Positions 3,401-24,172 of a DNA stretch of 64,000 nucleotides are shown piece by piece. This stretch comes from Hymenobacter mellowenesis (lineage in GTDB: Bacteria > Bacteroidota > Bacteroidia > Cytophagales > Hymenobacteraceae), in NCBI RefSeq assembly GCF_030581005.1, contig NZ_JAUQSX010000010.1, positions 62,001-126,000 of the forward strand. Direction: 5' to 3'. A model generated the notes under the pieces. It searched no databases. It was not told where the DNA came from and saw only the letters and a list, made by a program, of their open reading frames with translations. The translations under genes were made by a program, and so were the position numbers. The number at the start of each line of letters is the position of its first letter. Within the stretch, counting starts at the first letter, position 1.

Positions 3401-3753
3401 CGCTGCACTTCCTGGTAGCCGATTACCACCACGTCTTCCAGCTGCTTGCTGTCGGAAGCGAGGGAGACGTTGATGGTCGTGCGGTCGCCAATGGTTTCTT
3501 CTTTCGACACAAAACCCACGAAGCTGAAACGCAGCTTGGCACCGGCTGCGGTAGTGGCCGGAATCGAAAGGCTGTAGCTACCGTCGGCACCGGTCGAGGC
3601 GCCGTTGGTGGTGCCTTCTACCAGCACCGTCACGCCCGGCAGGGTTTCGCCCTCCGCCGATTTGACGACGCCTTGCACCTGGCGGTTTTGCGCCACGGCC
3701 AGCCCGATGCTCCCGAAGAACAGGAGCCAGACCAAGAGAAAATGTTTTTTCAT
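469..3753 (-). CDS. susC: SusC/RagA-family TonB-dependent outer-membrane transporter
   Basis: This protein of 1094 residues is a SusC-type TonB-dependent channel for oligosaccharide uptake. After a signal peptide ending around AVAQ (residue 22) comes a carboxypeptidase-regulatory-like beta-sandwich (about residues 25-110). A plug domain follows with the typical SusC segments ASVDVLKDASATAIYGARG and NGVIIITTKKG. The rest is a large barrel that ends in an aromatic/hydrophobic beta strand (AILFGVNLSL). The start at 3753 is preferred to an in-frame upstream ATG at 3885, because only the later start begins with a signal peptide and the longer frame would run into kduI. It lies 37 bp after kduI and just before susD. 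Pectic oligomers are the inferred cargo. Confidence 0.96.
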   Translation of the reverse strand: MKKHFLLVWLLFFGSIGLAVAQNRQVQGVVKSAEGETLPGVTVLVEGTTNGASTGADGSYSLSIPATTAAGAKLRFSFVGFVSKEETIGDRTTINVSLASDSKQLEDVVVIGYQEVQRRDVTGSVSSVSAQQIKDIPVNSAAEALTGRLAGVQLTSAEGTPGNLNVQVRVRGGGSVTQDNSPLYVVDGIQIENALSVIAPQDIASVDVLKDASATAIYGARGANGVIIITTKKGSEGRTVVSYNGFAGFRKITKTLGVLNPNDYLNYQFERARVIGNTSGGLPTFKSLFGSTNFNSDTLQRARNAPFIDWQDEVFGREAFQQTHNVSVAGGSKATTYSLSLTHNDEQGIQRGSDYTRNLINFRFDTKATDKLRVGLNARFNDQGTMGAGTSTSGSNTTSRLRNAVQYQPLQVPKANGQVVDISAFDPEFFDQSSLANPIVTIDNEYRKDKRRTINIGANASLELAKGLTFRTTAGFDITDINLGTFNGQFSPVLRSASGGYANLPFATITQSTQTTLNNSNVLDYSKKIGKHAFGLLVGEEVYQQQTKQLYIQTNFLPVDITAERALANINQGVLPAGQTAQPVLPQTSIPADYRLLSGFGRLTYSYDDKYLFTGTLRADGSSKFPEGNRVGYFPGASVAWRISREEFFKGIPTISDLKLRLSYGQAGNNRINDFLYAQLFTAGNAPYALNHSIVLGSSATSLANPNLKWETTTSRNIGIDLSLLDNRFQFTADAYYNTTNDLLLNKPIPAFLGYTSQLQNIGSTSNKGLEMQLTATVLRNENFSWTATANASFNRGRIESLGGNQTEIPAISSGWAGSTASLIPDYVARVGQPVGQMYGYVTDGYLTADDFTGYVPGANGALGTWTPRTDRTFVNNLGLIGESSYRPGLLKLKDLNGDNKIDANDQTVIGNANPKAVGGLNQQFSYKGFDASLFLNFVLGNDIYNANKIEFTSNTANTQFSNVLDIMSNRYRVIEADGSPITTLTRLQEVNQSANIWTPTRNFVFHSWAVEDGSFLRVNNITVGYTLPKTLTQRAKVNSLRFYATLNNVYTFTKYTGYDPEVNTRRATPLTPGVDYAAYPRSRAILFGVNLSL

Positions 3754-3790
3754 GAGTGAAAAAGTTGGGTGGGAGTTTTTAAAAGTCGGG

Positions 3791-4621
3791 TTAGCGTAGC
3801 GCGTCGAGCGGTACGGCGTCCATGTCGGTGTATTCGCGGTTTTCGCCGGCCATGCCCCAGATGAAGGCATAGTTGCTGGAGCCACAGCCCGTGTGGATGG
3901 ACCACGGCGGCGAGAGAATGGCCTGCTCGTTGCTCACCCACAGCGGGCGGGTTTCGGTGGGCTCGCCCAGCAGGTGCAGCACGCGCTGGCCCTGGGGCAG
4001 GTTGAAGTAGAGGTAGGCCTCCATGCGGCGGTCGTGGGTGTGGCTCGGCATAGTGTTCCACACGTTGCCAGGCTTGAGCTGCGTGAGGCCCATCACCAGC
4101 TGGCAGCTTTGGATGCCTTCCTGGTAGATGTATTTGTAGATGGTGCGCTCGTTGGCCGTTTCCATGGCGCCCATTTCCACGGGCGTTGCTTCGGCCTGGG
4201 TGCGGCGCGCGGTGGGGTGCACCGCGTGCGCCGGCGAAGACAGCAGGTAGAACTTGGCTGGCTGGGCCGCGTCCACGCTGGCAAAAACCACTTCTTTCGA
4301 GCCCATGCCCACGTAGAGGCAGTCCTGGTTGCCCAGTTCGTACACCGTGCCGTCTACGGTGATGGTGCCCGCGCCGCCTACGTTCAAGGTGCCCAATTCG
4401 CGGCGCTCCAGAAAGAAGTTGGCTTTCAGCGACTCGGGGCAGGGCAAAGTCAGCGCCGTGCCGGTGGGCTGGGCCCCGCCCACAATCATGCGGTCGTAGT
4501 GCGTGTAGGTTAGCTCGATTTCGCCGGGCGTGAAGATGTTTTCAATCAGGAAATGCTCCCGAATTCCGCTCGTGTTGAGCGTGGCAGTTTCGCGGGGGCC
4601 GATGGCAAAGCGCTGGGTCAT
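3791..4621 (-). CDS. kduI: 5-dehydro-4-deoxy-D-glucuronate isomerase
   Basis: KduI converts 5-keto-4-deoxyuronate, formed from unsaturated galacturonate, to 2,5-diketo-3-deoxygluconate in the cytoplasm. The protein has 276 residues, the normal family length, in a cupin fold. The metal ligands known from E. coli KduI (two His, one Glu and a distal His) are all present as His194, His196, Glu201 and His243, in the segments PSHTHDRRMEAYLYF and PPWSIHTGCGSSNY. It sits between kduD upstream and susC downstream, all on the minus strand, so uptake and the first cytoplasmic steps appear co-transcribed. An inverted repeat of AT-rich words fills the gap to kduD. Confidence 0.97.
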   Translation of the reverse strand: MTQRFAIGPRETATLNTSGIREHFLIENIFTPGEIELTYTHYDRMIVGGAQPTGTALTLPCPESLKANFFLERRELGTLNVGGAGTITVDGTVYELGNQDCLYVGMGSKEVVFASVDAAQPAKFYLLSSPAHAVHPTARRTQAEATPVEMGAMETANERTIYKYIYQEGIQSCQLVMGLTQLKPGNVWNTMPSHTHDRRMEAYLYFNLPQGQRVLHLLGEPTETRPLWVSNEQAILSPPWSIHTGCGSSNYAFIWGMAGENREYTDMDAVPLDALR

Positions 4622-5922: not shown

Positions 5923-6882
5923 CTAGTCCACGCTCACAGTGGGGTCCCAGTTATTGAGCACACTTTCGCGGGTGTAGAAGGCGGCCTGCTGCGGCGTGAG
6001 CTGGCGCGACCACAGGATGCGCGCCTTGGGCGCCGCGCCGGGCCCGGTGGACTTGTACTCGGCAAAAAAGGCGTCCTGCTTGTTGCTCTCCTTGCCCCAG
6101 TGGTCCCAGCCTTTGGGCTTGATGATGTTCGAGAGTTCGCAGTTCAGCAGTACGGTTTTGCCGGTGGGCTTCCAGGGACGGGCCAGGAAGTAAGATTCGG
6201 GCGGGGCCTCGCCGCCAATCTTGCAACGCTGCATCACGATGCCGTAGCGGACGCTGTCGGGCGTGGAAGCGGCGATGATGACGGTGCCGCCCGTTTTGCA
6301 AAACAGCGTGCAGTCTTCAAACCACGCCGTGGCCGAACCCAGAATATAGTCGGTGGTGCCTTCGATGTAGCAGTCTTTATAGTACTGCCGGCTGCCGTAG
6401 CCGTACACGTAGAGCGTATCGCGGAAGCCCAGGAAACGGCAGCCCACGAAGCGGGCGCGGTCGCCATACACCCACATGGCGGGGCCCTGCCCTACCGTGC
6501 CGGCGGTGTTTTCGAAGGTGATGTTTTCGGCCGAAAAGTCGGCGCCGAACACGCGGAAGGTGGAGGCTTCGGAGGTGCCCAGGGGCTCGCCGTTGGCGGG
6601 GGTGCGGCCGTTGTAGTCGTCGAAGGTGAGGATGGTGGTGTTTACGTCCTCGCCCTTGAGGCGCACGAAGTTCTTCTTTTTGGCCAGGTTCAGCTTCTCC
6701 TTATAGATGCCTTTGCGGATGAAGATGACCGTGGGCGTGCGGTTGTTGAGGGGCACGGCGTCGAGGGCGGCCTGCACGGTGCGGAAGTTGCCGGAGCCGT
6801 CCTGGGCCACCACCACGTTTTTGGTTTGGGCGAAACCGGTGAAGCTGACAAGCAGCAGGGCTAACAGTATAAACTTGGACAT
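5923..6882 (-). CDS. pemA: Secreted pectin methylesterase, CE8 family
   Basis: A pectinesterase of 319 residues that removes methyl esters from galacturonan. A signal peptide (MSKFILLALLLVSFTGFAQ) is followed by the right-handed beta-helix domain that occupies nearly the whole protein. The CE8 catalytic features are seen as Gln132, Asp155 in RDTLY, Asp178 in DYILG and Arg235 in ARPW. The usual QDTLY motif reads RDTLY here, so the second oxyanion-hole Gln is replaced by Arg154; the two catalytic Asp and the Arg remain. There is no T9SS tail, so it is probably periplasmic or secreted by another route. It is the single-domain relative of the large esterase at 15410-18016. Confidence 0.92.
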   Translation of the reverse strand: MSKFILLALLLVSFTGFAQTKNVVVAQDGSGNFRTVQAALDAVPLNNRTPTVIFIRKGIYKEKLNLAKKKNFVRLKGEDVNTTILTFDDYNGRTPANGEPLGTSEASTFRVFGADFSAENITFENTAGTVGQGPAMWVYGDRARFVGCRFLGFRDTLYVYGYGSRQYYKDCYIEGTTDYILGSATAWFEDCTLFCKTGGTVIIAASTPDSVRYGIVMQRCKIGGEAPPESYFLARPWKPTGKTVLLNCELSNIIKPKGWDHWGKESNKQDAFFAEYKSTGPGAAPKARILWSRQLTPQQAAFYTRESVLNNWDPTVSVD

Positions 6883-9259: not shown

Positions 9260-11185
9260 CTACTTGCCCAGCAGCCAGGTGGCCAAATCTTTGCCGGCCT
9301 GGAAATTCTGAAATGAGGCCGGAATCTTGCGGCCGTCGGTGTACTCGTTGTACAGCCACGGGTCGCCAAGAATGAAGACCTTACCCTTGCCCAGGCGGGC
9401 CGTGGCCATGATGACTTTGCCGTTGTTCGTCACCAGCGGCTGGGCTGGCGCGGCCACCGACAGCACTGACAGTTCCTTCACGTAGGCCGTGTTGGCATTC
9501 TTGAACACAGCTTTGCCGGAGGTCAAATCCACTTTGCCCTGCTCGAACTGCGAGCCCTGCACCATGTTGACGCTCTGGTTGGTGAACTGCACGCCGAAGT
9601 TTTTGGCCAGCTCGTTGAAGTGTTTGGTTTCGCAGTTGGCCGTGTCGTTGGCTAGCAGCACGAGGGTGCCGCCGCCCTTCACCCACTCGGTGATGACCTT
9701 GCTGTCGGCGGGCTGGATGTAGTTGGGCTTGGGCGACTCCTTGCGCGAGTCCGGGTCGACGATGATGTAGACGCTCAGGGGCTTAAGGCTGGCGGCCGTG
9801 GGGGCGGCTGGCACAGCTACGGTTTTGGCGCCCAGCTCGCGGAACTGGTTGCCCCACAGCCAGAAGCCACCGTGCTGGCGCTCTTCCCAGGTGTAGTGCC
9901 ACTGCTCCTGCTCGCCGCTGAGCGGGCTTTTACGCATCTCGTGGTTGAAAAAGTAGTCGAGGCCCACGGTTTTGCCCTGGCCGAGGCCATCTTCGGCGGC
10001 AATTTCCATCTCGGTGCTGGCCAGAATGAAGGGCCCAACGCCCTTGTAGTCGTTTTTGCGCAGCTTCTCGGTGAGGTAGTAGTCGAAGGTGCCGTCGCGG
10101 TAGGGCTTGCCGCCCAGGCCGCCCACGCTCACGGTGCCGTTGTAGGCCAGCGCGCCGTTTTCATCAGCCACGAAGGCTTTCAGAATGCCGTCGTAGCCTT
10201 TTTTGGCCACGGCCGCGTACTTTTTATCGAGGTAGCCCAGGCGCACGCCCTTGGCCAGCGCGTACACAAACATACTGCTGCCCGAGGCTTCGGCGTAGTT
10301 GCCCTTGCGGCCTTCCTGGCCCATCACGAGGCTCCAGGTGCCGGTTTTGGGGTCCTGGTACTTGGCCAGCACGGGCGCCAGCCGCTGCAGGGCTTTGATG
10401 AGGGCGGGGCGCTGCGGGTGGTTGGCGGGGAAGTAGTCGAGCACGTCGACCAACGCCATGCCGTACCAGCCAATGGCGCGGTCCCAGAAAGTGGGGCTCT
10501 GGCCGGTGGCTTTGTTGGCCCAGGGCTGCTCCCGGCTTTCGTCCCAGCCGTGGTAGAGCAAGCCGGTTTTGGGGTCGACCAGATTCTTCTCAATCAGTGC
10601 AAACTGCTTGGCGATGTCATCGAAGCCAGCGGGTTGATTGAACACGCGGCTGTACTCGGCATAGAACGGCTCGGCCATGTACAAGCCGTCGAGCCACATC
10701 TGATTGGGGTAGATTTTCTTATGCCAGAAGCCGCCTTCCTTGGTGCGTGGCTGGGTGTCGAGCTGCTTGCGCAGCAGTTGCGCGGCCTTGATATACTTGT
10801 CCTGGTCAGGCACCGAGCCCAGCTGGCTCAGCAGCAGCAGCCCGCGGCCGGGCGTGATGTGGTCGAGTTGAAACTCGTCGGCCCGGTAAGTGCGGATGCT
10901 GCCGTCCTTCTGCACGAAGCGGTTGAGGTCCTTCTGAATGTAATTGGCGTAGCGCGGGTCGCCGGTGCGCTCCCAGACGCGCTCCAGGGCTGTGTACATC
11001 AGGCCCTGCTCGTAGTTCCAACGGCTGGCCTTCGCCTCGCCCACCACAATGGAATCGGGGTTCCAGGAGATGAAGGCGTCGGCCATGCGCTGCGAGTAGG
11101 GCTTGGCGGCCGTTTGGGCAGCGGCGGTTTCGCTGAGCAGCGCGAGTGACAGCAGCGGCAGCAGGAAAGGGGTGGGTTGTTTCAT
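9260..11185 (-). CDS. GH105 unsaturated rhamnogalacturonyl/galacturonyl hydrolase with extra C-terminal domain
   Basis: A secreted or periplasmic enzyme of 641 residues. The signal peptide ends near AAAQ (24). The GH105 (YteR/RhiN-like) alpha/alpha-barrel covers about residues 28-420. It contains MWLDGLYM with the probable catalytic Asp166, and later FWDRAIGWYGMAL and EASGSSMF. Family members remove the 4,5-unsaturated uronate left at the non-reducing end by pectin lyases. Residues from about 460 to 641 form a second domain (SVYIIVDPDSRKE..., EWVKGGGTLVLLANDT..., KVFILGDPWLYNE) resembling DUF4350/GATase-like folds, absent from minimal GH105 enzymes. The start at 11185 is chosen because an upstream in-frame ATG at 11227 lies in a repeat and precedes no signal peptide. 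Confidence 0.92.
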   Translation of the reverse strand: MKQPTPFLLPLLSLALLSETAAAQTAAKPYSQRMADAFISWNPDSIVVGEAKASRWNYEQGLMYTALERVWERTGDPRYANYIQKDLNRFVQKDGSIRTYRADEFQLDHITPGRGLLLLSQLGSVPDQDKYIKAAQLLRKQLDTQPRTKEGGFWHKKIYPNQMWLDGLYMAEPFYAEYSRVFNQPAGFDDIAKQFALIEKNLVDPKTGLLYHGWDESREQPWANKATGQSPTFWDRAIGWYGMALVDVLDYFPANHPQRPALIKALQRLAPVLAKYQDPKTGTWSLVMGQEGRKGNYAEASGSSMFVYALAKGVRLGYLDKKYAAVAKKGYDGILKAFVADENGALAYNGTVSVGGLGGKPYRDGTFDYYLTEKLRKNDYKGVGPFILASTEMEIAAEDGLGQGKTVGLDYFFNHEMRKSPLSGEQEQWHYTWEERQHGGFWLWGNQFRELGAKTVAVPAAPTAASLKPLSVYIIVDPDSRKESPKPNYIQPADSKVITEWVKGGGTLVLLANDTANCETKHFNELAKNFGVQFTNQSVNMVQGSQFEQGKVDLTSGKAVFKNANTAYVKELSVLSVAAPAQPLVTNNGKVIMATARLGKGKVFILGDPWLYNEYTDGRKIPASFQNFQAGKDLATWLLGK

Positions 11186-11203
11186 ATCGAATATTAATGG
11201 ACC

Positions 11204-11307
11204 GTCATGCAGAGCGCAGCGAAGCATCTCGCGTGCCGAAGTAACTCAATCGTTCAACGATTTTAATTACTTCGGCACGCGAGATGCTTCGCTGCGCTCT
11301 GCATGAC
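11204..11307. repeat. Dispersed intergenic palindrome, copy 2, perfect 41-bp arms
   Basis: Two exactly complementary 41-base arms, starting GTCATGCAGAGCGCAGCG, surround a 22-base loop. The element lies between the CE12-GH28 stop and the GH105 start, only 18 bp from the latter, so it would be in the GH105 leader. Its sequence differs from the other copies on both arms in parallel. Confidence 0.88.
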
Positions 11308-11353: not shown

Positions 11354-13717
11354 TTAGCGCTGGGCCACGCTCACCGTTTTCTTGGCCAGCTTGTCGCCCA
11401 GCTGCACGTCTTTTTTGGCCTTCTTCGTGTCAGTGTTGGTCAGGCGGATGTCCTTGCTGCGGTCGCCGGTCACGCGCAGCAGCAGCTCGGCGCCGTTGGT
11501 GTAGCGGATGCCGTCGAACGCCAGGTTGCGGCTGTTCTGCACCTCCATCACCGGGGCGGTATCGGACGAGAGCAGGGTCACGTTTTTCAGGCGAATATTC
11601 TCGGCTTCCTGGCACACGAGGCCTTTTTTGCATTCAATCACTGCGTTTTCGATGCTGATGTCCTTGATGCTCATCTCGGGTAGGCCGCGCACCAGGATGC
11701 CGGTGGTGGCGCCCTTGCAATACACATTTTTGATGCGGAAGCCTTTAAACTGCGGCGTGCCTTCGTTCAGCGGCATGGCGGCGATGACGGGCGGCGCGGT
11801 GCTTTCACCGGCCAGCGGCACGGGGTCTTTGGCGGCGTAGTACATGTCGAACAGGATGGCCTCGCCGGCAATGTTGGTCATGTCGACGCCATCCACGAAG
11901 ATGTTCTCAACCACGCCGCCGCGGCCCCGGGCCGTCTTGAAGCGCAGCCCCACATCGGTGCCGATGAAGGTGCAGTTGCTCACATACAGGTTGCGCGCGC
12001 CGCCCGACATCTCGGAGCCAATCACGAAGCCGCCGTGGGCGTGGTACACCTTCGTGTCGCGGATGATGAAGTTTTCGGTGGGCACGCCGCGCTTGCGGCC
12101 CTGCTCGTCGCGGCCCGATTTGATGCAGATGCCGTCATCGCCCACGTCGAACGTGCAGCCTTCCACGATGCCGTTGCGGCACGATTCCAGGTCCAGCGCG
12201 TCGGTGTTCTGGCCGTACCAGGGGTTGCGGGCCGTCACGTTGCGCAGGGTGATGTTTTCGCAGAGCAAGGGGTGAATGGTCCAAGCCGGCGAGTTCTGAA
12301 TTACGAATCCTTCGAGCAGAATTTGCTTGCAGCGCGTGAGGCTGAGCATGTTGGGCCGCAGAAAGTCGCGGATATCATCAAAATCATTCACGTTGAGGCT
12401 CTTACGGGGCGCGTCTTCGGCCTTCATCGTGTTACCTTTCATCGAGCTGGCCGAGGGGTACCACATGTCCTTTTTCGCGCTCAGCACGCCACCCGAAGCC
12501 ACCAGGTTTTGCCACTGCGTCTCGTTGAGCTTGCTTTTCTTCACGGGCCGCCAGGCATCGCCGGCGCCATCAAAGGTGCCGTTGCCGGTGATGGCAATAT
12601 TGGTGAGGTCCACGCCCGAAATGGGAGCCTGGCTGCGGATGGCATCCTCCCCTTCCCAAGTGGTTTTGATGAGCGGGTACTGGCTGCGGTCGGCCGTGAA
12701 CTGCACGAGCGCGCCGGTGGCTAGGTGCAGGTTCACGTTGCTTTTCAGGGTGATGGGGCCCGTCAGCCACAGGCCGCGGGGCACCAGCACGGTGCCGCCG
12801 CCCACGGCGCAGGCGTCGATGGCCTTGCGGAAGGCCTCGGTGTTCAGCGTCTGGCCGTCGGCCACGGCGCCGTACTTGGCCAGGTTGAAGGTGTCCTTCT
12901 TAAAGGAAGGCTGGAGCACCACCGGCAGGTCAGCCACGAGCTTGCCGTCGAAGGGCGCGCGGCTGAGGTGGCTGGCCAGCCCGAGATGCTGGGCCTGCAC
13001 GTCTTCGGCCACGAGTTGGGCCACGCGGGTGGCGCCGTACTCCGAGAAGTGGGTGTTGTCGTTTTTGGCGGGGGCCACGGGGTTGGGCTGGTAGTAGCCA
13101 TTCTGGTAGCTCCAGAACAGCGGCCGGGTGCCCGCCTCGCCCAATTGGGAGTACATCTTCCAGCTTTGCTCGTACAGGTCAATCAGCGGCACTTTCTGGG
13201 TTTTGGCCACCTCGCGCACCACGCTGGGGTACTGGCCGTGGTCGTCCTTGCGCTGGCCTTTGTCGTCAAAGTAGCGGCGTCCTACTGGTGTAAGTAGCAC
13301 CGGATTGGCGCCCTTGGCTTTGGCTTCCTGCACGAACCGGGTGAGGAACTGCCGGTACGTCGTCTGGGCCGGGGCCGCGCGCACGCTGTCGTCGGCCTTC
13401 GAGTCGTTGTGGCCGAACTGGATGAACACCCAGTCGCCGGGCTTCAGGCCTTCGAGCACCTTGGCCCAGCGGCCTTCGCGGTAGAAGCTTTTGGTGCTGC
13501 GCCCGTTCACGGCCGTGTTGCGAATGACGACGTTGTTGTCGAAATACTGGCCAAACTCCATGCCCCAGCCGCGCTCGGGCTTGGTCAGGTCGGGCTTGTC
13601 GGCCATGGTGGAATCGCCGACGAGGAACACCTGCGTTTTGGGCACGTCCGCCGGGTGGAATGCCACCGACAGGGAAGTCGTCAGGCCAGCCAGCAGCACC
13701 ATCAAAGTTGATTTCAT
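11354..13717 (-). CDS. Fusion of CE12 rhamnogalacturonan acetylesterase and GH28 polygalacturonase
   Basis: A secreted two-enzyme protein of 787 residues. After a signal peptide comes an SGNH/CE12 esterase (about 26-260) with GDST (nucleophile Ser36), NGRST, GHND and the catalytic pair Asp220/His223 in DNTHF. A GH28 parallel beta-helix follows (about 274-770) with all family motifs: NTD (504-506), GDD (526-528), the His at 561 in HAHGG and RFK (592-594). The first domain would remove acetyl groups and the second hydrolyse galacturonan or rhamnogalacturonan backbones. There is no T9SS tail. The start at 13717 gives the signal peptide directly; an ATG at 13771 is less likely. Two LacI-type operators lie upstream. 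Confidence 0.93.
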   Translation of the reverse strand: MKSTLMVLLAGLTTSLSVAFHPADVPKTQVFLVGDSTMADKPDLTKPERGWGMEFGQYFDNNVVIRNTAVNGRSTKSFYREGRWAKVLEGLKPGDWVFIQFGHNDSKADDSVRAAPAQTTYRQFLTRFVQEAKAKGANPVLLTPVGRRYFDDKGQRKDDHGQYPSVVREVAKTQKVPLIDLYEQSWKMYSQLGEAGTRPLFWSYQNGYYQPNPVAPAKNDNTHFSEYGATRVAQLVAEDVQAQHLGLASHLSRAPFDGKLVADLPVVLQPSFKKDTFNLAKYGAVADGQTLNTEAFRKAIDACAVGGGTVLVPRGLWLTGPITLKSNVNLHLATGALVQFTADRSQYPLIKTTWEGEDAIRSQAPISGVDLTNIAITGNGTFDGAGDAWRPVKKSKLNETQWQNLVASGGVLSAKKDMWYPSASSMKGNTMKAEDAPRKSLNVNDFDDIRDFLRPNMLSLTRCKQILLEGFVIQNSPAWTIHPLLCENITLRNVTARNPWYGQNTDALDLESCRNGIVEGCTFDVGDDGICIKSGRDEQGRKRGVPTENFIIRDTKVYHAHGGFVIGSEMSGGARNLYVSNCTFIGTDVGLRFKTARGRGGVVENIFVDGVDMTNIAGEAILFDMYYAAKDPVPLAGESTAPPVIAAMPLNEGTPQFKGFRIKNVYCKGATTGILVRGLPEMSIKDISIENAVIECKKGLVCQEAENIRLKNVTLLSSDTAPVMEVQNSRNLAFDGIRYTNGAELLLRVTGDRSKDIRLTNTDTKKAKKDVQLGDKLAKKTVSVAQR

Positions 13718-13855
13718 GGGAATCGAAAAAGGAGCCAAACCTGCGGGTTCGGCCCGTGCGAATAGAAGCAAAGGCAGGATTGCCCTAACAATATTAGGCC
13801 CGTTCGGAGGTCATCGGCCCCTCATTCTGGCGGGCCAGGCGCCTTTTTTTGCGCA

Positions 13856-14092: not shown

Positions 14093-15148
14093 ATGAAAAA
14101 TTCGCTACTCATCACTGGCTTGCTGGCCGGCAGCCTGGCCCTCGCTGGCCAGGCCTCGGCCCAGACGACCCCCATCTACAAATTCTGGTCGCTGAAAGTA
14201 AACGCCACGGACAGCGCCGCCCTGCGTTCGCCGAGCACCATGCCAGCCAGTAATGCCATACTGCGCAAGCTCGTGCTTTCCAGCGGCTTGCCCGTTGTAA
14301 CCACGGCTACGCCACCGGTCACCATCATCACCCCTCCCCCGTTCAGCTCGCAGTACGGCATGGCCTTCGCGCCGGCGGCCGATGGCGGCGGCTGGAGCTC
14401 CAACGCGACGCCCCCTGGTCCGGGCAGCGTTTTGCGCCGCACTTTCGGCGTTCAGTTCACCGCCACGGCTCCGGCCGGCGTCACGCTGCGGGCCGACTCG
14501 CTCGTGATGAACCTGACATTTCTGAACACGACCAGTGGCACCAACATCGCCATTGTGTATTCCAAGAACAACTTTGGCACGCCCGCCGACTCGACCGAGT
14601 CGAGCGGAGGCGGCAAAGGTCCCAACGGCGCACTCGTGCCGGTGGCCAACGGCAGCACTTTTTTCAATACGTACCCTATTACCAACTCGCTGTCAGCCAT
14701 TTCTGCCACGGGTTCCAACCCGCCGAACAATTTCCGATACAGCGTGGCGCTGAACGGGGCCAACGGCGTGACCATTGCCCCCGGCCAAACCCTCACCCTG
14801 CGGATGTACGTGAGTTGCAGCAGTGGCAGCCAGGGCCGCCACGCCCTGCTGCGCAACGTAGCGCTGAAAAGCCTGCAGGCACCGCTGGCCGTCCGCCCGG
14901 CCCTGCAAACCAACCTGGCCGTGTATCCCAACCCGACGCAGAACCAGCTTAACGTGCCCCACACCGCCGCCAGCCGCGACGCCCACGTGACCTTATTCGG
15001 CACCACCGGCGCTAAAGTGGCCGCCTTCGCGGTGCAGGCCGGCAGCACCGAGACGGCTGTGGACCTGGGTGCCCTGCCCAAAGGCCTGTACCTGATAGAA
15101 TACGCCGACGGCGTGCAGCGCAGCAGCGCCCGCATTGTGAAGGAATAG
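14093..15148 (+). CDS. T9SS-exported protein with an uncharacterised module shared with the pectin methylesterase
   Basis: A secreted protein of 351 residues with no recognised enzyme domain. A signal peptide (ending near QASAQ) is followed by a module of about 235 residues beginning YKFWSLKVNATDSAALRS. The same module sits before the sorting tail of the methylesterase at 15410-18016. The C-terminus is a T9SS type A sorting domain (VYPNPTQNQLNV... to IVKE), which would lead to export and anchoring at or release from the cell surface. With one operator upstream and pectinases on both sides, a pectin-binding or surface-assembly role is likely; I infer this from context. The start at 14093 gives the signal peptide at once. 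Confidence 0.85.
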   Translation: MKNSLLITGLLAGSLALAGQASAQTTPIYKFWSLKVNATDSAALRSPSTMPASNAILRKLVLSSGLPVVTTATPPVTIITPPPFSSQYGMAFAPAADGGGWSSNATPPGPGSVLRRTFGVQFTATAPAGVTLRADSLVMNLTFLNTTSGTNIAIVYSKNNFGTPADSTESSGGGKGPNGALVPVANGSTFFNTYPITNSLSAISATGSNPPNNFRYSVALNGANGVTIAPGQTLTLRMYVSCSSGSQGRHALLRNVALKSLQAPLAVRPALQTNLAVYPNPTQNQLNVPHTAASRDAHVTLFGTTGAKVAAFAVQAGSTETAVDLGALPKGLYLIEYADGVQRSSARIVKE

Positions 15149-15170
15149 CTTTTTTGCCAGCTCGTTTTTT

Positions 15171-15211
15171 GAAAGCGCCTCCAGCTAAGTTGGGGGCGCT
15201 TTCTGCTTTTT
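15171..15211 (+). terminator. Rho-independent terminator after the T9SS protein gene
   Basis: Stem GAAAGCGCC / GGCGCTTTC with a loop of 16 bases, followed by TGCTTTTT. It begins 23 bp after the stop codon at 15148. Confidence 0.75.
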
Positions 15212-15298
15212 GGCGCGGGGCTAGAGTCTATTGATAAAGCATTTGGCTGGCGTTAGCATCGGCGGGCTGCCAACGCGGCTTCTTTGGGCGACGCTGGC

Positions 15299-15316
15299 AA
15301 CGTTCCCGGCAACGAT
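15299..15316. promoter_or_regulatory. Predicted LacI-family operator upstream of the large pectin methylesterase
   Basis: AACGTTCCCGGCAACGAT, one base off the shared palindrome, followed by TGCGCAAATAAG. It lies 94 bp before the start at 15410, closer than the other sites are to their genes. Confidence 0.7.
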
Positions 15317-15409
15317 TGCGCAAATAAGCAACTGGCATTAAGTGTCGTTTGGGCGGGTAGCGGGGTAATATTGAAGGGAATTCTCACCCAACACCCTACT
15401 CACTTCTCT

Positions 15410-18016
15410 ATGTTAAACTTTTTCTCGACGCACTTTGCCTGGCGACGCCCGGCCGCCCGTTTCTGGGTGCTGCTGAGCTTTATGGCGCTGGCCGCCAGCC
15501 GCGCCTTCGCCTACGACGTGACCGTGGCCCAGGACGGCACCGGCAACTACACCACCGTGGCGGCCGCCATTGCCGCCGCACCCACCGGCCGCACCACGGT
15601 GTACAGCATCTTCATCAAAAACGGCGTTTATCGCGAGAAAATCAGCATTCCGGCCACCAAGCCGTTCATTCAGCTGGAGGGCGAAAGCGTGGCCAACACC
15701 ATTCTGACCTACACCGACGGCGCCAGCACCATTGTGGGCGGCGTGGCCCTGGGCACCCAGAACTCGGCCAGCTTCAGCGTGAATGCCAACGACTTTTCGG
15801 CCCTGAACCTGACGTTTGAGAATTCGTTTGGCGACGGCTCACAGGCCGTGGCGGTGCTGGTGAACGCCGACCGCGCGGTGTTCAAGAACTGCCGCTTTCT
15901 GGGCAACCAGGACACGCTGTACGTGAAGGGCTCGGGCGCGCCGATGCACTACTTCCGCGACTGCTACATTGATGGCAACGTGGACTTTATCTTCGGCAGC
16001 TCGATTGACATTTTCGACCGCTGCGTGATTTACGCCAAGTCGCGCTCCACCAACGGCGCCTCCTACATCACGGCGGCCAACACGCCGCCCGGCCAGGCGT
16101 TCGGCTTCATTTTCCACGATGCCAAAATCCCGTCGAACACCGGCGCTACGCTTTACTACCTGGGCCGGCCCTGGCAGAATTCGACCGGCAGCGTGCCCCT
16201 GACGCAGAACAAGGTGGTGCTCATCAAGCCCACGCTGGGCTTCAACCAGATTCAGCCCGCCGGCTGGACTACCTGGGATGCCGGTACCGACACGAACATC
16301 ATTACCTACGCTGAATTCCGGCCCCGCTACTTCAGCGGCCGCAACGTGAATGTGAGCCAGCGCGTGACCTGGTCGCGCCAGCTGGCCGTGGCCGACACCG
16401 CCCAGTACCAGACCAGCACCGTATTCGGCACATGGAACCCCTGCGCCGTGGCTCCCAGCGTATGCACGGCGTTCACGCCAGCTATTGCCGTGTCGAACTT
16501 CCGCGCCACCAAAGGCGCCACCCAAACCACGCTGGACTGGAACATCAGCTGGGCTATGGCCGGCATCCGCTACGACCTGCTGCGTTCGACGGACAACGTC
16601 AACTTCAGCCAGATTAACACCGTAACGGCGGCCAACGACTCGACCTACAACTTCCAAATGACCGACGCGCTGCCCGCCGCCGGCAACGTGTATTACTACA
16701 AAGTGCAGGCCTCGAAAGCCGGCCTAGCCACGCACACCACGCTCACGGCCACGGTATCGAGCATCGCTACCATTGTGGCCAATACCACGGCCCTGGGCAC
16801 GTTTGCGCAGTACCAGACCGGCGCTTCGGCCACGCAGACGTACTCGCTCTCGGCCACCAACCTGACGGCTAACCTGACGGTGACGCCCCCGGCGGGCTAC
16901 GAAGTATCGGCCAACGGCGGCACCAACTGGTACACCAATACCACGCCACTGGTGCTCACGCCCACGGCCAACACCGTGGCCGCCACCACCATCAGCGTGC
17001 GCCTGAACGCCACGGCGGCCGGCACCTACGCCGGCAACATCGTGCACACCAGCACGGCCGCTACCACGCAGAACGTGGCCGTGACCGGCTCGAAAGTGAA
17101 CACCGCCGCCCCGGTGTCGGACCCGCTGAAATGGTGGTCGCTGAAAGTGAGCGACCAGGACAGCGCGGCCATCCGCTCGGCCGCCACCACGGCCAGCACG
17201 CCCATCCTGCGCCGCTTCGTGCTCTCGAACGGCACCACGGTGACGGCCTATCCGGCCCGCTCCACGCGCTACGGCCAGGCGTTCGCCGCCACCGCCGATG
17301 GCTTGTGGAGCGCATCCGCCCCCACCAACGGCCCCGGCAGCAACGTCGACCGTCGTTTTTATGAGCAGTTTACCATCACGGCCGGAGCCAACCGCTCGGT
17401 TCGGATTGACTCGGTGCTGCTGTGGTCGGCGTTCTACAATACCACTGGCAAGCTGGCCGTGGTGTACTCGAAGAGCAACTTCACTACCGACTCCACGGAC
17501 GTAACCGGGGGCCGCGGCCCGGCCGGCGTGCTGCCCGCTACGGCCAACGGCGCCTTCGCCACGCCCATCGCGCTGGCCAACCAGAACACCGGCACCAACC
17601 AGACCTACCGCTTCGCGCTGAACAACGCCCTTGGCACGACCCTCACGGCCGGCCAGACGCTGACTGTGCGCCTGTACTTCGCCTGCGCCAGCTCCAGCTC
17701 GGGCCGCTACGCGCTGCTGAAAGACGTGGTGCTCAAAGGCCAGGCCACCACCGTGACGGCCACCCGCGTCGCCCTCCACGGCATGGCCCTGTCGGTGTAC
17801 CCGAACCCTTCGGCTGGGCAAACCACGATTGAGCTGCTCGGCTCGTCGAAGCCGGCCACGCTCACCGTGCTCAATGCCCTCGGGCAGGTAGTACACACCC
17901 AAGCCGTGGCAGCCGGCGCGGCGCAGCTGAACACCACCAAACTGGCCCCCGGCGTGTACCTGGTGCGCGTAAGCACGGCCGACGGCACGCTCTCGCAGCA
18001 ACTGGTGCGCGAGTAA
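15410..18016 (+). CDS. Multidomain T9SS-exported pectin methylesterase, CE8 family
   Basis: A surface or extracellular pectinesterase of 868 residues. Order: signal peptide (to about 34); CE8 beta-helix (about 35-345) with Gln145, Gln167-Asp168 in QDTLY, Asp192 in DFIFG and Arg253 in GRPW, all intact; a fibronectin-III-like domain (about 365-455); a beta-sandwich domain (about 460-560) with TNLTANLTVTPPAGYEVS; a module of about 210 residues beginning KWWSLKVSDQDSAAIRS that matches the upstream T9SS protein; and a T9SS type A sorting tail (VYPNPSAGQTTIELL... to LVRE). The start at 15410 gives a signal peptide with the late hydrophobic core FWVLLSFMALAAS. A longer frame from 15284 would include the operator and is rejected. 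Confidence 0.94.
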   Translation: MLNFFSTHFAWRRPAARFWVLLSFMALAASRAFAYDVTVAQDGTGNYTTVAAAIAAAPTGRTTVYSIFIKNGVYREKISIPATKPFIQLEGESVANTILTYTDGASTIVGGVALGTQNSASFSVNANDFSALNLTFENSFGDGSQAVAVLVNADRAVFKNCRFLGNQDTLYVKGSGAPMHYFRDCYIDGNVDFIFGSSIDIFDRCVIYAKSRSTNGASYITAANTPPGQAFGFIFHDAKIPSNTGATLYYLGRPWQNSTGSVPLTQNKVVLIKPTLGFNQIQPAGWTTWDAGTDTNIITYAEFRPRYFSGRNVNVSQRVTWSRQLAVADTAQYQTSTVFGTWNPCAVAPSVCTAFTPAIAVSNFRATKGATQTTLDWNISWAMAGIRYDLLRSTDNVNFSQINTVTAANDSTYNFQMTDALPAAGNVYYYKVQASKAGLATHTTLTATVSSIATIVANTTALGTFAQYQTGASATQTYSLSATNLTANLTVTPPAGYEVSANGGTNWYTNTTPLVLTPTANTVAATTISVRLNATAAGTYAGNIVHTSTAATTQNVAVTGSKVNTAAPVSDPLKWWSLKVSDQDSAAIRSAATTASTPILRRFVLSNGTTVTAYPARSTRYGQAFAATADGLWSASAPTNGPGSNVDRRFYEQFTITAGANRSVRIDSVLLWSAFYNTTGKLAVVYSKSNFTTDSTDVTGGRGPAGVLPATANGAFATPIALANQNTGTNQTYRFALNNALGTTLTAGQTLTVRLYFACASSSSGRYALLKDVVLKGQATTVTATRVALHGMALSVYPNPSAGQTTIELLGSSKPATLTVLNALGQVVHTQAVAAGAAQLNTTKLAPGVYLVRVSTADGTLSQQLVRE

Positions 18017-18035: not shown

Positions 18036-18071
18036 AAAAAGCCCCGCTGGCATCGCCGGCGGGGCTTTTTT
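18036..18071. terminator. Bidirectional rho-independent terminator
   Basis: AAAAAGCCCCGC, a short loop, then GCGGGGCTTTTTT, 19 bp after the methylesterase stop. The A and T runs on the two sides allow function on both strands; the gene on the right is convergent. Confidence 0.88.
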
Positions 18072-18211: not shown

Positions 18212-20713
18212 CTACTTCCCATTCACCGCGAAGTTGCTGGAGGTGCCTTGCGCGGGCTGGCCGTCTAGGCTCAGGCCTTCGGCGATGGCTTGGAAGGTGC
18301 CCCCGCCGTCGGCGGTGAAGAAATGCAGCTCGGCTTGGCCGTTGGCGTTGGTGCGCACCAAGGGGTTCCAGTAGAGGGTGCTGGTGCGCAGGTCGGCGGG
18401 CGGATTGGTGAGCAGGGCGTTGTAGCGCGGCTGGTAGAACTCGCGGGCGGGGTAGAAACCGGGCAGTTTCACGGTGGCAATGCCGGGCGAGGCACCCAGC
18501 GGACCCTTGTAGTTGGGGTTGGCGCGCTTGGTGTAAATGGCAATTGCCCCGCCACTGCCGCCAAAAATCGCCGCTTCGTTGCCCTTGAAAACCTCCACCG
18601 ACTCCACATCCGCCGAATTGATGGTGCTGATGGCGTCAATGTCCACCTTCATGCCATCGAGGATGAAGAGCGGGCTGCCGCTGTTCCGAATCTGGGCCGT
18701 CATGTTGGGCGGGCTGCCGCTGATGGTGAGGCCGGCCACCCGGCCCTGCAGCATCTGCAGAATATTCATGCCGGATTTGGCAGTGGGGTCGTTGGCAAAA
18801 TCAATCACCGTGCCGCCGGTGGCGCCGTAGAGGCGGCGCGGGTCGTCGCGCGGCACGGTTTCGCGCTTGGCCGTGACGGACACGTTGCCGAGGTTGATGT
18901 TGCGGATGGCTTTCTCGGGGTGCAGGTCCAGGTCGGCGGCTTGGGCCTGGCGGCTGCGTTTGATGAACGAGGCCACGCCCGCCGGCGCGGCCGAAAGCTG
19001 CGGCAGCAGCGGCAGCGGCCCACCCGTGGGGTCGGGGCCAAAATCGGGCTTGATGAGGACGTTGGAGCCGCCCTGCGCACGCCGGGCCTGCAGCGTGATG
19101 AGGGCCGTGTCGGTGACGGGAATGCCGGCGAAACTGAAGCGGCCGTTTGCGTCGGTAGTGCCAGTGGCCACCACTTTGCCGGGGCGCATCTGCAAGAAGG
19201 TCAGCTGGCTGTTCGGAATGGGGCGGTTGCCGTTGGCACTCACCACCTGGCCTACTAGGCTGATGTCGTGTTCCGGGGTGAAGTGCATGGGCGGCGCCTG
19301 CCCGGCCAGCACTTCCTTCCACACAAAACGGCGCCAGCCCTGGGTGAGCAGCAGGTCATCGAGCGCCTGGGCGGTGGCGGCCGAGGGTTCGCGGAAATAG
19401 TAGCCGGGGTTTTCGACGTAGCCCACCAAGTCGGAAGTCAGCAGCAGATTGGAGGCAATGGTTTCGGCCTGCGGGTCAATGGCCGTCAGGCCGGCATCGC
19501 TCACGCCCAGCGAGAAGTTGGTGGCCACGGGCTTGCCGGCGGCGTCGGTCACGCGCACGTTGAGCTGCACCGGGGCGTGCGGCCCGTAGTTAGTCTGGTC
19601 GGAAGTAATGGCGATGCGCAGCGCGCTGGGGCCGTTCAGCACGAAGGCCAGCCGCTCGCACTGCGGCGCGCCCTGCCCATCGAACAGCGTGAAATGCACG
19701 ATGCCGCTGGGGTAGTTTTTCTTGGGCATGCGCCAGCTCACGGGCGCGTCGGCGGTGAGGGTGCGCGGGCCGGGGTAGGCCACTACGCCGCGCACTTCGG
19801 TCATGAGCTGCACGGGGCCGGGCGCGGCGCCCCGATAACGGGCCTCCACGATGAAGTCGTCGGCGCTTTCCACCACGTGCAGCGTGTAGCCGCTGGGCTG
19901 CGACGCCGGCAGCGGGTAGTCGGTGGCCGTGCCGTCGGGCAGCACGATGCGGGCGTGGTAGCGCTGCCCCGCGCCGGGCACGAAGGCGAAGCGCCCCATG
20001 CCGGCGTGGCGGCTGCTGAAGGCCGGTACCACCACCGCATTCTGCGCGTTCATAATCTGGCCTTTCACGGCCAGGCTGCGGCCGGTGACGTCGGTGGCTT
20101 TCACGGCCACCACGGCGGGCAGGCCTTCCACGAGGTAGCCGCCCTCGGGAAAGAACTGAATGTCGGGCTGGCCGGGGCGGGCCACGCGGCGCACGTTGCT
20201 GCCCGCGCCGCCGGGGGTGCTGGTGGGCACATCGGGCGGGCTCAGGGGCGAGGCGGGCCACACGCTGAGGCGGCGGCTATAAATAAAATCTTCGCCGGCG
20301 TTGCGCATCCAGTTGGTGTAGGCGCGCAGCACATAGGTACCGGCCGTGAGCGAGTCGGCAATGTCGATGTCGCCGCTGGCGCGGCCACCCTGCAGGCGAA
20401 TGGTGCGGCGGGCCACCACCTTGCGCTGGGGCGAAAGCAAATCGACGTGCAGCACCTGACTGAGCGAGTCCAGTTGGTGGCGCGAGGCATCTACCACGTA
20501 GGCGCTGAACCAGATGGTTTCGCCGGTGGCATACACCGGGCGGTCGAGGTGCAGGTAGGCTTTTTCCTGGCGGGCCGTGAGGTAGTACTCGCCCACTTGG
20601 CGCGCAATGCGCTGCAGCAGTGTTTCATCGGTGGGCCGGGGCCGAAACGCGGTGAGGGCCACGCCACCGGCCAGCAAGGTGATAAGAAGTGCTTTGGGCA
20701 AGCGCATGGGCAT
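18212..20713 (-). CDS. MG2-like and TonB-receptor-plug domain protein without a barrel
   Basis: A protein of 833 residues with an N-terminal signal or anchor helix (about 7-24). It has an MG2/macroglobulin-like region opening with KAYLHLDRPVYATGETIWF, further beta-sandwich repeats, a carboxypeptidase-regulatory-like segment (GQVVSANGNRPIPNSQLTF) and, near residues 630-750, a TonB plug-like segment (ILQMLQGRVAGLTISG, LFILDGMKVD, VESVEVFKGNEAAIFGGSGG). No transmembrane barrel follows the plug; the protein ends about 80 residues later. Such proteins are common in Bacteroidota and are thought to act at the envelope, but their function is not settled. It lies in the pectin locus but has no regulatory palindrome upstream. 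A second ATG at 20707 is an equally possible start. Confidence 0.82.
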   Translation of the reverse strand: MPMRLPKALLITLLAGGVALTAFRPRPTDETLLQRIARQVGEYYLTARQEKAYLHLDRPVYATGETIWFSAYVVDASRHQLDSLSQVLHVDLLSPQRKVVARRTIRLQGGRASGDIDIADSLTAGTYVLRAYTNWMRNAGEDFIYSRRLSVWPASPLSPPDVPTSTPGGAGSNVRRVARPGQPDIQFFPEGGYLVEGLPAVVAVKATDVTGRSLAVKGQIMNAQNAVVVPAFSSRHAGMGRFAFVPGAGQRYHARIVLPDGTATDYPLPASQPSGYTLHVVESADDFIVEARYRGAAPGPVQLMTEVRGVVAYPGPRTLTADAPVSWRMPKKNYPSGIVHFTLFDGQGAPQCERLAFVLNGPSALRIAITSDQTNYGPHAPVQLNVRVTDAAGKPVATNFSLGVSDAGLTAIDPQAETIASNLLLTSDLVGYVENPGYYFREPSAATAQALDDLLLTQGWRRFVWKEVLAGQAPPMHFTPEHDISLVGQVVSANGNRPIPNSQLTFLQMRPGKVVATGTTDANGRFSFAGIPVTDTALITLQARRAQGGSNVLIKPDFGPDPTGGPLPLLPQLSAAPAGVASFIKRSRQAQAADLDLHPEKAIRNINLGNVSVTAKRETVPRDDPRRLYGATGGTVIDFANDPTAKSGMNILQMLQGRVAGLTISGSPPNMTAQIRNSGSPLFILDGMKVDIDAISTINSADVESVEVFKGNEAAIFGGSGGAIAIYTKRANPNYKGPLGASPGIATVKLPGFYPAREFYQPRYNALLTNPPADLRTSTLYWNPLVRTNANGQAELHFFTADGGGTFQAIAEGLSLDGQPAQGTSSNFAVNGK

Positions 20714-22262: not shown

Positions 22263-24035
22263 CTACTCCCGCGTGCACTTCGCCGTTAGGCTCACGTCGG
22301 CATCGGTGTACACCACCAGGTAGTTGCCTTTAGCTAAAGACCCCAGATTGACCGGCGTAGCAACGCCGCCCGCAGTAGGCGTGAGCGTGGCCACGCGCTG
22401 GCCCACGAAGTTGTACACCGTGAGGCGGGCGGCGGCCGTGGCCCGCGGGTGCATCACCGTCAGCTGCTCGCTGGCAGGGTTGGGATAAAGCTGCAGCGGC
22501 GTCACGTTGGCGCCGGTAGGCTTGCTGGCCGTCACGACGGTGACGAGGCCGTTGAGATAGTTTTCGAGGTTGGTGTAGCCGTTAGCGGCGATGAATTGGC
22601 GGTCGGCGGGGTTCAAGGGCGCGAGGCCGTTGTTCAATTCGTACGCATCGGGCATGCCGTCGTGGTCGGAATCGACGGGCGCGGCGCCGCAGGTGAGCAC
22701 CGGCCAGGCCACCTGCGAGGTGCTGATGGGCGTGCCGTGCGGGAATCCGCCCTGCACGTCGATAACGGCCCCGGTGCGGTTCTGCACGTCGTTGATGATG
22801 CGCTGGTCGAGCGGGTCGCGCACGGGCAGCACGCAGCCCACGCCCTGCAGCACCGAGGCGTAGGCGGCCTGGGCCGTTTGGGTGTTCAGGGGGGCCACGT
22901 TGAAGGGCGTGGTTACTTTCGATTGAACCGTATCGGCGGCAGTGCCGCCGTTCATCGACACCCCTTTCCAGTTGGCAGCCGTCACCGTGGGGCTGCCATC
23001 TACGTAGTTACCAGCGATGTACAGCTGCGGGTAAGGCAGCACCGGCGCCGTGGTCTGCTTGTACGCTTGAAACACCCGCGAGCGGTTGGTGGTGCTGGTG
23101 CCGGTGGTGGGGCCGTACTTGTAGTAATTGTTCACCATGTTGTAGTTGCCGCCCTCGCCGCCGTAGGCGTTGGCGCCGGCGCCCCAGTTGTAGATGACGT
23201 TATTGCGGAAATCGCAGTTTTCCGAGCCGATGGCGGCGCCGTAGCGGGTGCCGTTCCAGCGCGGGGTGCGGCTCACGCAGTGGGCAAACAGGTTGTGGTG
23301 AAACGTGGCCCGCCGGCCGCCCCAGATGCCGCCGTAGCCGTGGCGCTCGTAGTCGGTGTCACCGGTTTCGAAGTGGTAGGAGTAGTTCAGCGGCTCCGAA
23401 ATCAGGTTCCACTGCAGGGTCATCGAGTCGTTGGTGGCGCCATAGAAGGTGAAAGCTTCGTCCATGCTCCAGCTCATGGTGCAGTGGTCAATCACAATGT
23501 TCTTGCGCTCGGTGCTGCTCAGGGCATCTTCGTCGCCGTTGCCGTTGGTCATGCCGATGCCGGTTTGCTGCGGGTAGGAATCGCCGGTGCGGAAGCGCAC
23601 GAAGCGGATAATCACGTTGTTGCCGTTCACCGTCACCTGGCGGTCGGCAATGCAGATGCCGTCGCCTGGGGCCGTCTGGCCCGCAATGGTGGTATTAGCC
23701 GGAATGTTCATCCGGGCAGTGAGGTGGATGGTGCCGCACACCCGAAACACGATGGTGCGAAACGGTGCCGCCGTAGCCGACTGGCTGATGGCGTAGCGCA
23801 GCGTGCCCTGGGTGTTGGTATCGGCCAGGCTGGTCACTTCAAACACCGTGGTGGGCGTCGAAGTCCGGCCCCGGCCGCCGGTCACGAAGCGGCCGGCCCC
23901 TTCCACGCCGGGGAAAGCCAGCTGCTGCGCTTGGGCCGGAGCGGCCGCCGCCAGGCCGCCCACCGTGGCCAGCAGGCTTAGCCCTAGGCGCGCCCGGGAG
24001 AGAGAAGAAACAGTGCGAGGGAAGAAAAAAATCAT
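22263..24035 (-). CDS. T9SS-exported pectate lyase, PL1-like
   Basis: A secreted lyase of 590 residues. A signal peptide ending in APAQAQ is followed by AFPGVEGAGRFVTGGRG, the standard opening of Bacteroidota PL1 pectate lyases, and a parallel beta-helix to about residue 400. Conserved pieces include the calcium-region residues in GDEDALSS and IDHCTMSWSMDEAF, and SRTPRWNG with the probable catalytic Arg. A short linker with DSDHDGMPDAYE and a T9SS type A tail (LYPNPASEQLTV... to CTRE) close the protein. It would cut demethylated galacturonan and leave unsaturated ends for the GH105 enzyme. An operator lies 138 bp upstream. The start at 24035 is favoured over 24107 by the signal peptide. Confidence 0.93.
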   Translation of the reverse strand: MIFFFPRTVSSLSRARLGLSLLATVGGLAAAAPAQAQQLAFPGVEGAGRFVTGGRGRTSTPTTVFEVTSLADTNTQGTLRYAISQSATAAPFRTIVFRVCGTIHLTARMNIPANTTIAGQTAPGDGICIADRQVTVNGNNVIIRFVRFRTGDSYPQQTGIGMTNGNGDEDALSSTERKNIVIDHCTMSWSMDEAFTFYGATNDSMTLQWNLISEPLNYSYHFETGDTDYERHGYGGIWGGRRATFHHNLFAHCVSRTPRWNGTRYGAAIGSENCDFRNNVIYNWGAGANAYGGEGGNYNMVNNYYKYGPTTGTSTTNRSRVFQAYKQTTAPVLPYPQLYIAGNYVDGSPTVTAANWKGVSMNGGTAADTVQSKVTTPFNVAPLNTQTAQAAYASVLQGVGCVLPVRDPLDQRIINDVQNRTGAVIDVQGGFPHGTPISTSQVAWPVLTCGAAPVDSDHDGMPDAYELNNGLAPLNPADRQFIAANGYTNLENYLNGLVTVVTASKPTGANVTPLQLYPNPASEQLTVMHPRATAAARLTVYNFVGQRVATLTPTAGGVATPVNLGSLAKGNYLVVYTDADVSLTAKCTRE

Positions 24036-24172
24036 TGCGGGAAGGTTGGGAGTCGAAGGGAAAACTGCCGGGCGCCACCGTCTCCAAACGGCAGCAAAAC
24101 CCGGCAATTCCCCTATAAATATTACGCTTTAAAGGCCCGGCAACTGCTGCCCGGCGGCTTTTTATTCGCGCA

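Follow-up and report, generated by a model that had tools for sequence, protein, structure and literature searches.

A predicted jelly-roll module resembling carbohydrate-binding modules, shared by a CE8 pectin methylesterase and a stand-alone type IX cargo protein in a Hymenobacter pectin locus

Why should one protein of a pectin locus consist of little more than a domain that another protein of the same locus carries behind a pectin methylesterase? This question is raised by a stretch of 64,000 nucleotides from the 6.42-Mb genome of Hymenobacter mellowenesis (G000:C1:62001-126000; hereafter the window), which by its predicted gene content holds a pectin locus and in which the proteins P0001 (14093-15148, plus strand) and P0002 (15410-18016, plus strand) contain one and the same module, termed A in the former and B in the latter. 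We consider that this module probably represents an undescribed family resembling carbohydrate-binding modules (CBMs), with a jelly-roll fold and a phylum-wide distribution, which is found mainly on pectin-active enzymes and would most likely bind pectic chains. A wider proposal, to which we give somewhat less than even chances, is that it belongs to an unnamed CBM superfamily largely devoted to pectin, and that its stand-alone forms exported by the type IX secretion system (T9SS) constitute, beside the lipoproteins, a second class of protein that captures pectin at the surface, in the pectin loci of more than one class of Bacteroidota.

P0001 (351 residues) comprises a signal-peptide-like N-terminus recognized by eye, module A (239 residues; 14171-14887, plus strand) and a T9SS C-terminal sorting domain (residues 277-347; 14921-15133, plus strand) that exceeds the cut-offs of both PF18962 (41.2 bits against 27) and TIGR04183 (32.7 against 23), in agreement with the preliminary description, according to which one of the two proteins is little but module. 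P0002 (868 residues), encoded on the same strand throughout, begins with a CE8 pectinesterase domain (residues 36-335; 15515-16414; PF01095 at 202 bits against a cut-off of 27, and 1gq8 at E 7e-38), followed by a linker named Fn3-like and Ig-like from its sequence appearance (residues about 351-570; 16460-17119), module B (209 residues, 572-780; 17123-17749) and a T9SS tail (residues 796-865; 17795-18004; PF18962 at 47.1 bits against 27 and TIGR04183 at 51.7 against 23). By these sorting domains both proteins are predicted T9SS type A cargo. Modules A and B share 45% identity over 230 residues (153 bits, E 9e-45 in a small database of the locus), the two whole proteins align by BLASTP with 41% identity over 324 residues when the tails are included (E 7e-54), and module A, searched against the whole genome, recovered a single copy besides itself, module B (E 7.8e-41). 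As judged from these alignments, the similarity is far beyond chance, and the earlier claim of one module in two proteins is borne out, with coordinates correct within a few bases; the motifs quoted for it also hold, apart from the middle one, which reads (I/V)VYSK(N/S)NF rather than V(V/L)YSK. The longest stretch common to A and B at the DNA level, among those reported, is 61 nucleotides with only 75% identity, so that this is an old homology between proteins and a recent duplication of DNA within the window is rejected.

Relatives were gathered from 15 loci (13 in Hymenobacter and two in Chitinophagaceae), and 26 modules make up alignment A1. When these 26 copies were compared with Pfam, the best row reached only E 0.027, and neither CBM4/22 (Pfam CBM_4_9) nor CBM6 (Pfam CBM_6) was among the five families matched at E <= 1; rows below cut-off for these two families lay outside the modules of two carriers, CBM_4_9 in L111 and CBM_6 in L230. 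Pfam and NCBIfam searches with P0001 and P0002 found nothing beyond chance over the module, and sequence searches of the PDB with P0001 and three profiles gave no module match at E <= 0.001, the best row for the profile of distant relatives being 3msw at E 0.016, above that limit. The preliminary description could name no family for the module, and these profile searches found none either. We found no published description, unless the label CE8-CBM37 in the available part of PMC6004670 is one, and the portions of PMC8056085 and PMC6247017 at hand do not treat the module. Unless it proves to be CBM37, a possibility considered below, the module therefore appears to form an undescribed family, CBM-like and of a known kind. 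The module is present in 46 of 120 Hymenobacter genomes and in 29 of 294 genomes of the family of G253, taken as Chitinophagaceae from the named relatives among the 15 loci, and the A1 profile matched five of 395 sampled Bacteroidota genomes at E <= 0.001, one of them weakly. These and the later genome counts are lower bounds, a limited number of first-look candidates having been scored per genome (7 or 8 in the phylum searches).

A structure prediction compared with known CBM folds had been proposed as a check, and its outcome, a predicted CBM-like jelly roll, favours the binding proposal. The AlphaFold2 model of module B (m67f47f84ce71; predicted local distance difference test score, pLDDT, 91.4; predicted template modelling score, pTM, 0.90) has twelve strands and no long helix, and alignment of Foldseek candidates with VIA-align matched it to CBM4-2 (2y64, an engineered variant) at Z 10.1 over 138 of 209 residues with a root-mean-square deviation (rmsd) of 3.0, the next CBM rows being CBM61 (9.6), CBM4, CBM22 (9.4), CBM35 (9.0) and CBM29. 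In the model of the mature part of P0001 (m81586c2c3957; pLDDT 84.0), module A matched the meprin MAM domain, CBM27, CBM15 and CBM61 at Z 8.9-9.3, and the tail matched two T9SS C-terminal domains of solved structure, 8qb1 at Z 8.3 and 8glj at Z 7.7; Foldseek with P0001 returned a single row at the 1e-3 limit, an endo-N-acetylglucosaminidase whose TM-scores were 0.25 and 0.16. Thus, the models support a CBM-type jelly-roll beta-sandwich in both modules, a fold class rather than a family, because the Z values only slightly exceed the usual background (7 to 8). An R-x-Y motif near the C-terminus, in the penultimate strand, is found in 175 of 175 modules aligned, its residues corresponding to R183 and Y185 of module B (frequency 1.00 each), and the related pattern R-[ILVF]-[YF]-[PS] occurs in 39 of 42 distant modules. 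The strand pattern places R183 and Y185 on one face, where they may form either part of a binding face or a structural pair.

Genomic context supplies the main evidence, beginning with architectures that associate the module with pectin-active enzymes. In Hymenobacter the commonest order is CE8-Fn3-Ig-module(s)-tail, in which the module occurs once or twice, and CE8 is present in 43 of 46 genomes with the module versus 42 of 74 without it (Fisher p 9e-6, the genomes being related and not independent). Because choosing by the module is thereby avoided, we also used the Fn3-Ig linker of P0002 alone as a query against the same 120 genomes, and compared the coordinates of its hits by hand with those of the modules. 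At E <= 1.1e-24 there were 66 hits, and all 63 that spanned at least 195 linker residues were followed by a module no more than some 30 bases further on. The remaining three, together with two weaker hits, cover the Fn3 part or little more and lack a module (G420, G421, G461, G474 and G495, in frames of 471-566 residues), and three weaker hits of nearly full span (G416, G442 and G480) also have no module beside them. One CE8-module gene, L129:4362-7131, appears to be broken into overlapping frames. Among 20 regions fetched from Chitinophagaceae, one each from 20 of the 29 positive genomes, CE8 is present in 20 of 21 module genes, and the single exception (L176:3271-5724) adjoins a CE8 gene with two modules; eight of the CE8 module genes also match the pectate lyase of the window, and of the four scanned with Pfam only the one in L177 gave PF00544.

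Genes like that of P0001 provide a second line of evidence. We collected 33 Hymenobacter genes of 340-430 codons that consist of module and tail (solos), leaving out L065, a 426-codon frame in which no tail was detected, and two fragments. With window genes for GH28, GH88/105, CE8, CE12-like, KduI and PL1 proteins as seeds, a homologue of at least one was found around 27 of the 33 solos in fetched stretches of 9 to 19 kb, compared with none of 20 arbitrary 13-kb control stretches from module-bearing genomes (Fisher p 1.1e-9; the control was unmatched for T9SS genes or stretch length). At four loci (L101, L113, L116 and L120), the solo stays between the GH28 gene and a gene for an MG2/Plug protein, with no module-bearing CE8 in the stretch. 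The window version of this last protein (18212-20713; 833 residues) combines an MG2 domain and a TonB plug domain with a carboxypeptidase-regulatory-like stretch, and many Hymenobacter pectin loci have a homologue of it next to the solo.

The association recurs in a distant branch of the module family. At E <= 0.01, a profile of 50 modules without catalytic residues (A2) matched 31 of the 395 genomes sampled from Bacteroidota, mostly weakly and with those already known included; in 20 fetched regions the match lay N-terminal of CE8 in seven (L220, L221, L223, L224, L227, L234 and L236), and one pectate lyase (L230) and one CE12-like GDSL esterase (L232) were also found. Eleven repeats from four proteins of the fetched regions (L220, L223, L236 and L238) make up alignment A4, which hhalign relates to A1 with a probability of 97.0 (E 7.9e-11 in a single comparison, 114 columns) and which in a search retrieved from G253 a CE8-module protein of the kind in A1 (E 4e-7). 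A4 matched 35 of the 395 genomes at E <= 1e-5, and the 29 carriers at E <= 3.4e-17 comprise 11 CE8, five PL1-like, one PL9 (1ru4, E 1.2e-59) and two CE12-like GDSL proteins, hence 19 of 29 fused, as well as two non-catalytic proteins in pectin loci and eight others. Pectin-linked carriers thus number 21 of 29, or 17 of 25 without the four carriers that built A4. In the CE8 and PL9 carriers and in four of the PL1-like ones, the distant module precedes the catalytic domain; in L241 it is flanked by two PL1-like domains, and in L232 and L250 it follows the GDSL domain; the CE8 match in L227 and L244 covers only about the first two thirds. Because the broader lyase seed PL1b also matched non-lyase stretches (for example in L222), the lyases of L230, L243 and L249 were checked with PF00544, which confirmed them. 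The closest parallel to P0001 outside its own class is L246:3923-4855, a protein of 311 codons with one module and a tail by appearance, whose gene adjoins GH88, CE12-like and GH28 genes; a larger one of 698 codons, L238:1315-3408, combines a T9SS tail with three modules that are strongly acidic (net charge -15 to -21), and genes for KduI and a TonB receptor lie nearby. Among still remoter relatives are a pair of short T9SS proteins and a protein with a PEP-CTERM motif (L222, L225 and L226), the last being a very distant relative of 246 codons at L226:2925-3662.

Since one jelly-roll domain flanks several pectin-active catalytic families, on either side, and also stands alone in pectin loci, it behaves as a CBM might, and substrate binding would be the most economical explanation of these contexts; because CE8 and lyases dominate among its partners, homogalacturonan is favoured as the ligand. 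Our data suggest a model whereby module B would hold the extracellular CE8 pectin methylesterase of P0002 on the polymer while methyl groups are removed, and P0001, which the type IX system would export for display at the cell surface, would act as a non-catalytic binder that captures pectin near the enzymes of the locus and the SusC/SusD uptake pair. Homology, domain order, T9SS tails and genomic context were observed and the fold was predicted, whereas we infer the glycan binding itself, homogalacturonan or another pectic chain as its ligand, anchoring at the surface as opposed to release, and any effect on the enzyme. If binding is true, the module would define a CBM family that is new and simply recognized, by the invariant R-x-Y in the penultimate strand, and would offer a sequence handle on the secreted pectin-degrading proteins of environmental Bacteroidota; a CBM specific for pectin would be of further use in probing the plant cell wall.

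A number of observations weigh against this binding model. The neighbour seeds derive from the window locus itself and therefore favour pectin links, and even so six of the 33 solos (L102 and L122-L126) lacked a pectin seed in the fetched stretch; the neighbours of three of these six include a penicillin amidase, a DUF5122 propeller and a lipase-like protein, among others, none of them pectin-related. The module also occurs without CE8 in 17 large Hymenobacter genes, for which a pectin seed was found in the stretch in two (L058 and L070) and in the other 15 was not; in the eight of the 17 that were scanned, Pfam recognized repeats of Ig or Fn3 type and placed no catalytic domain above its cut-off. 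The neighbours of L005 are recG, an acyl-CoA dehydrogenase and a thiolase, and those of L064 a ClpB-type ATPase and a HupE/UreJ protein; at L060, a single neighbour gene was scanned and nothing could be named. In the distant branch, eight of the 29 carriers (L235, L240 and L251-L256) have no shown pectin link or named catalytic domain, L253, L254 and L255 having been examined with window-derived seeds only, and L251 having BNR-type similarity to 3b7f ('Glycosyl hydrolase, BNR repeat') and a neighbour matched by the unreliable PL1b seed. L241 and the second gene of L242 are PL1-like only by similarity to the window lyase, without a match to PF00544. As for the fold, Foldseek found no match for module B in the PDB at E <= 1e-3, protein-binding domains are nearly tied with the CBMs for module B (meprin 9.9 and reelin 9.4; Elapor1 also reached 9.6), and meprin ranks first for module A. 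Finally, net charge varies by class, from means of +2.0 to +8.3 in Hymenobacter and +1.9 in the CE8 proteins of Chitinophagaceae to -4.7 in the distant branch, and although the Hymenobacter and Chitinophagaceae modules together (n=174) average +6.0 versus +0.9 for the linker, the T9SS tails are equally basic per residue. Because of these tails and the negative mean of the distant branch, the argument from charge for a polyanionic ligand was dropped.

The module is therefore not exclusive to pectin loci, since 15 large proteins and six solos had no pectin seeds in their fetched surroundings, and this is one half of what the preliminary description had named as evidence against its proposal, namely presence of the module on T9SS proteins from unrelated loci together with a lack of binding to any pectic glycan. 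The main rival is a general surface-protein beta-sandwich, which would serve T9SS cargo as a spacer, a stalk or a site of contact between proteins, and whose frequent presence on pectin enzymes would go back to a single old, inherited fusion. We regard this as unlikely, though it draws on the large Ig/Fn3 proteins of unrelated loci, on the very distant relatives in the PEP-CTERM-motif protein and in cadherin/PA14/Calx-beta proteins, on a fold common to meprin, reelin and ephrin-receptor domains, and on the few context changes that the tree needs. In a tree of 175 modules, copies group strongly by context, with 16 changes versus 91.2 in shuffles, and because CE8-borne copies surround both the solo and the large-protein copies, the topology suggests that these derive from CE8 proteins (the root being arbitrary and 57 of 172 inner branches weak). 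One compact clade of large Hymenobacter proteins (L060, L063, L064, L066-L069 and L081) has the module near the start and no pectin seed in the stretch, and its scanned members show Ig-type repeats. Against a single inherited fusion stand at least two pectin arrangements with different catalytic families, C-terminal of CE8 in Hymenobacter and Chitinophagaceae and N-terminal of CE8, PL1-like and PL9 domains elsewhere, and the four loci at which solos keep their place in the pectin locus without a module-bearing CE8 in the stretch.

A slightly less probable alternative, again an unlikely one that partly overlaps the pectin-binding model, is a binder of neutral carbohydrate, whether pectic side chains such as galactan or arabinan, or cellulose or xylan, that would anchor pectin enzymes to the cell wall. 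The best fold matches agree with it, CBM4, CBM22 and CBM61 having xylan, xyloglucan and galactan as listed ligands, as does the lack of a conserved net charge; the identified catalytic partners, on the other hand, act on pectin. It is improbable that the module is already filed in CAZy as CBM37, which would in any case overlap the pectin-binding model as to function. A metasecretome protein with its best match in a T9SS protein of Runella is annotated CE8-CBM37 in the available part of PMC6004670, and CBM37 of Ruminococcus albus is summarized in the corresponding part of PMC12098361. The architecture, a T9SS CE8 with an accessory module, is of the same class, but the label is automatic, could equally lie on the tail, and was set beside our module by annotation only. 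An element of T9SS assembly or surface attachment that acts with the C-terminal tail is very improbable, for although the module adjoins the tail in both window proteins, the genome of the window has these two copies only, the T9SS pectate lyase of the same locus (22263-24107, minus strand; PF00544 at 32.4 bits against a cut-off of 24, a modest match) has a tail and no module, five module-free frames carry just the Fn3 linker part or little more (their tails were unchecked), and most of the distant copies stand at the N-terminus, with hundreds of residues between them and the C-terminal end. As that lyase lacks it, the module is no general mark of T9SS cargo in this locus, and as the distant relatives lie mostly far from the tail, the earlier alternative of a carbohydrate-binding or a surface-assembly module is narrowed: the predicted CBM-like fold and the link to pectin enzymes and loci stand, and a pure surface-assembly role is disfavoured.

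Further genes of the window agree with the assignment of a pectin locus. On the minus strand lie those for a GDSL esterase (CE12-like) fused to GH28 (11354-13771), a GH88/GH105-type unsaturated glycuronyl hydrolase (9260-11227; PF07470), a second CE8 pectinesterase without module or T9SS tail (5923-6882), a KduI/IolB-family protein (3791-4621) and a TonB-dependent receptor with a CarboxypepD_reg domain (469-3885); a sodium-solute symporter gene is a further member of the locus, and a SusD homologue is found just beyond the window edge (G000:C1:60542-61540). The genes for P0001 and P0002 are probably separate transcription units, because a long terminator-like hairpin follows each of them (15171-15203 and 18036-18070, both on the plus strand); the hairpins come from a consensus scan only, which found 7 sites versus 4.5 expected.

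How, then, does the module compare with known systems? A definition of CBMs is given in the accessible part of PMC5943554; module B lies in the same chain as the CE8 domain of P0002 and has a confident predicted fold of its own. In the CAZy sense a CBM is defined by demonstrated carbohydrate binding, and the module is a candidate for this class. The large CE8-PL9 proteins with presumed cell-wall-binding domains described for Butyrivibrio, of which PmeC5 is the example (PMC12109409, seen in part), resemble P0002 in joining a CE8 enzyme to accessory, presumably carbohydrate-binding domains and in the presence of PL9, but they belong to another organism group and have other named domains, the comparison being one of descriptions. 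CBM4, CBM22, CBM35 and CBM61 align with the predicted beta-sandwich of module B over 123-138 residues (rmsd about 3 Å, Z 9.0-10.1) and are likewise fused to carbohydrate-active enzymes; they differ in that the module has 7-13% identity to them, no Pfam hit and about 70 residues outside the alignment. Gingipain Kgp is T9SS cargo, and its adhesin domain (3m1h) aligns with module B over 147 residues at Z 8.9, with 12% identity and no sequence-family link found. CBM77 is a pectin-binding CBM and would have a pectic ligand in common with the module; the Pfam scan gave no match to it and none of the structural rows shown is so named, which excludes nothing, as the presence of CBM77 in the libraries was unconfirmed. 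The surface glycan-binding proteins of polysaccharide utilization loci in Bacteroidota are typically lipoproteins that capture glycans non-catalytically at the outer surface. The role proposed for P0001 is the same, whereas its T9SS tail and its domain are different, and if binding is true P0001 would be their T9SS-delivered counterpart.

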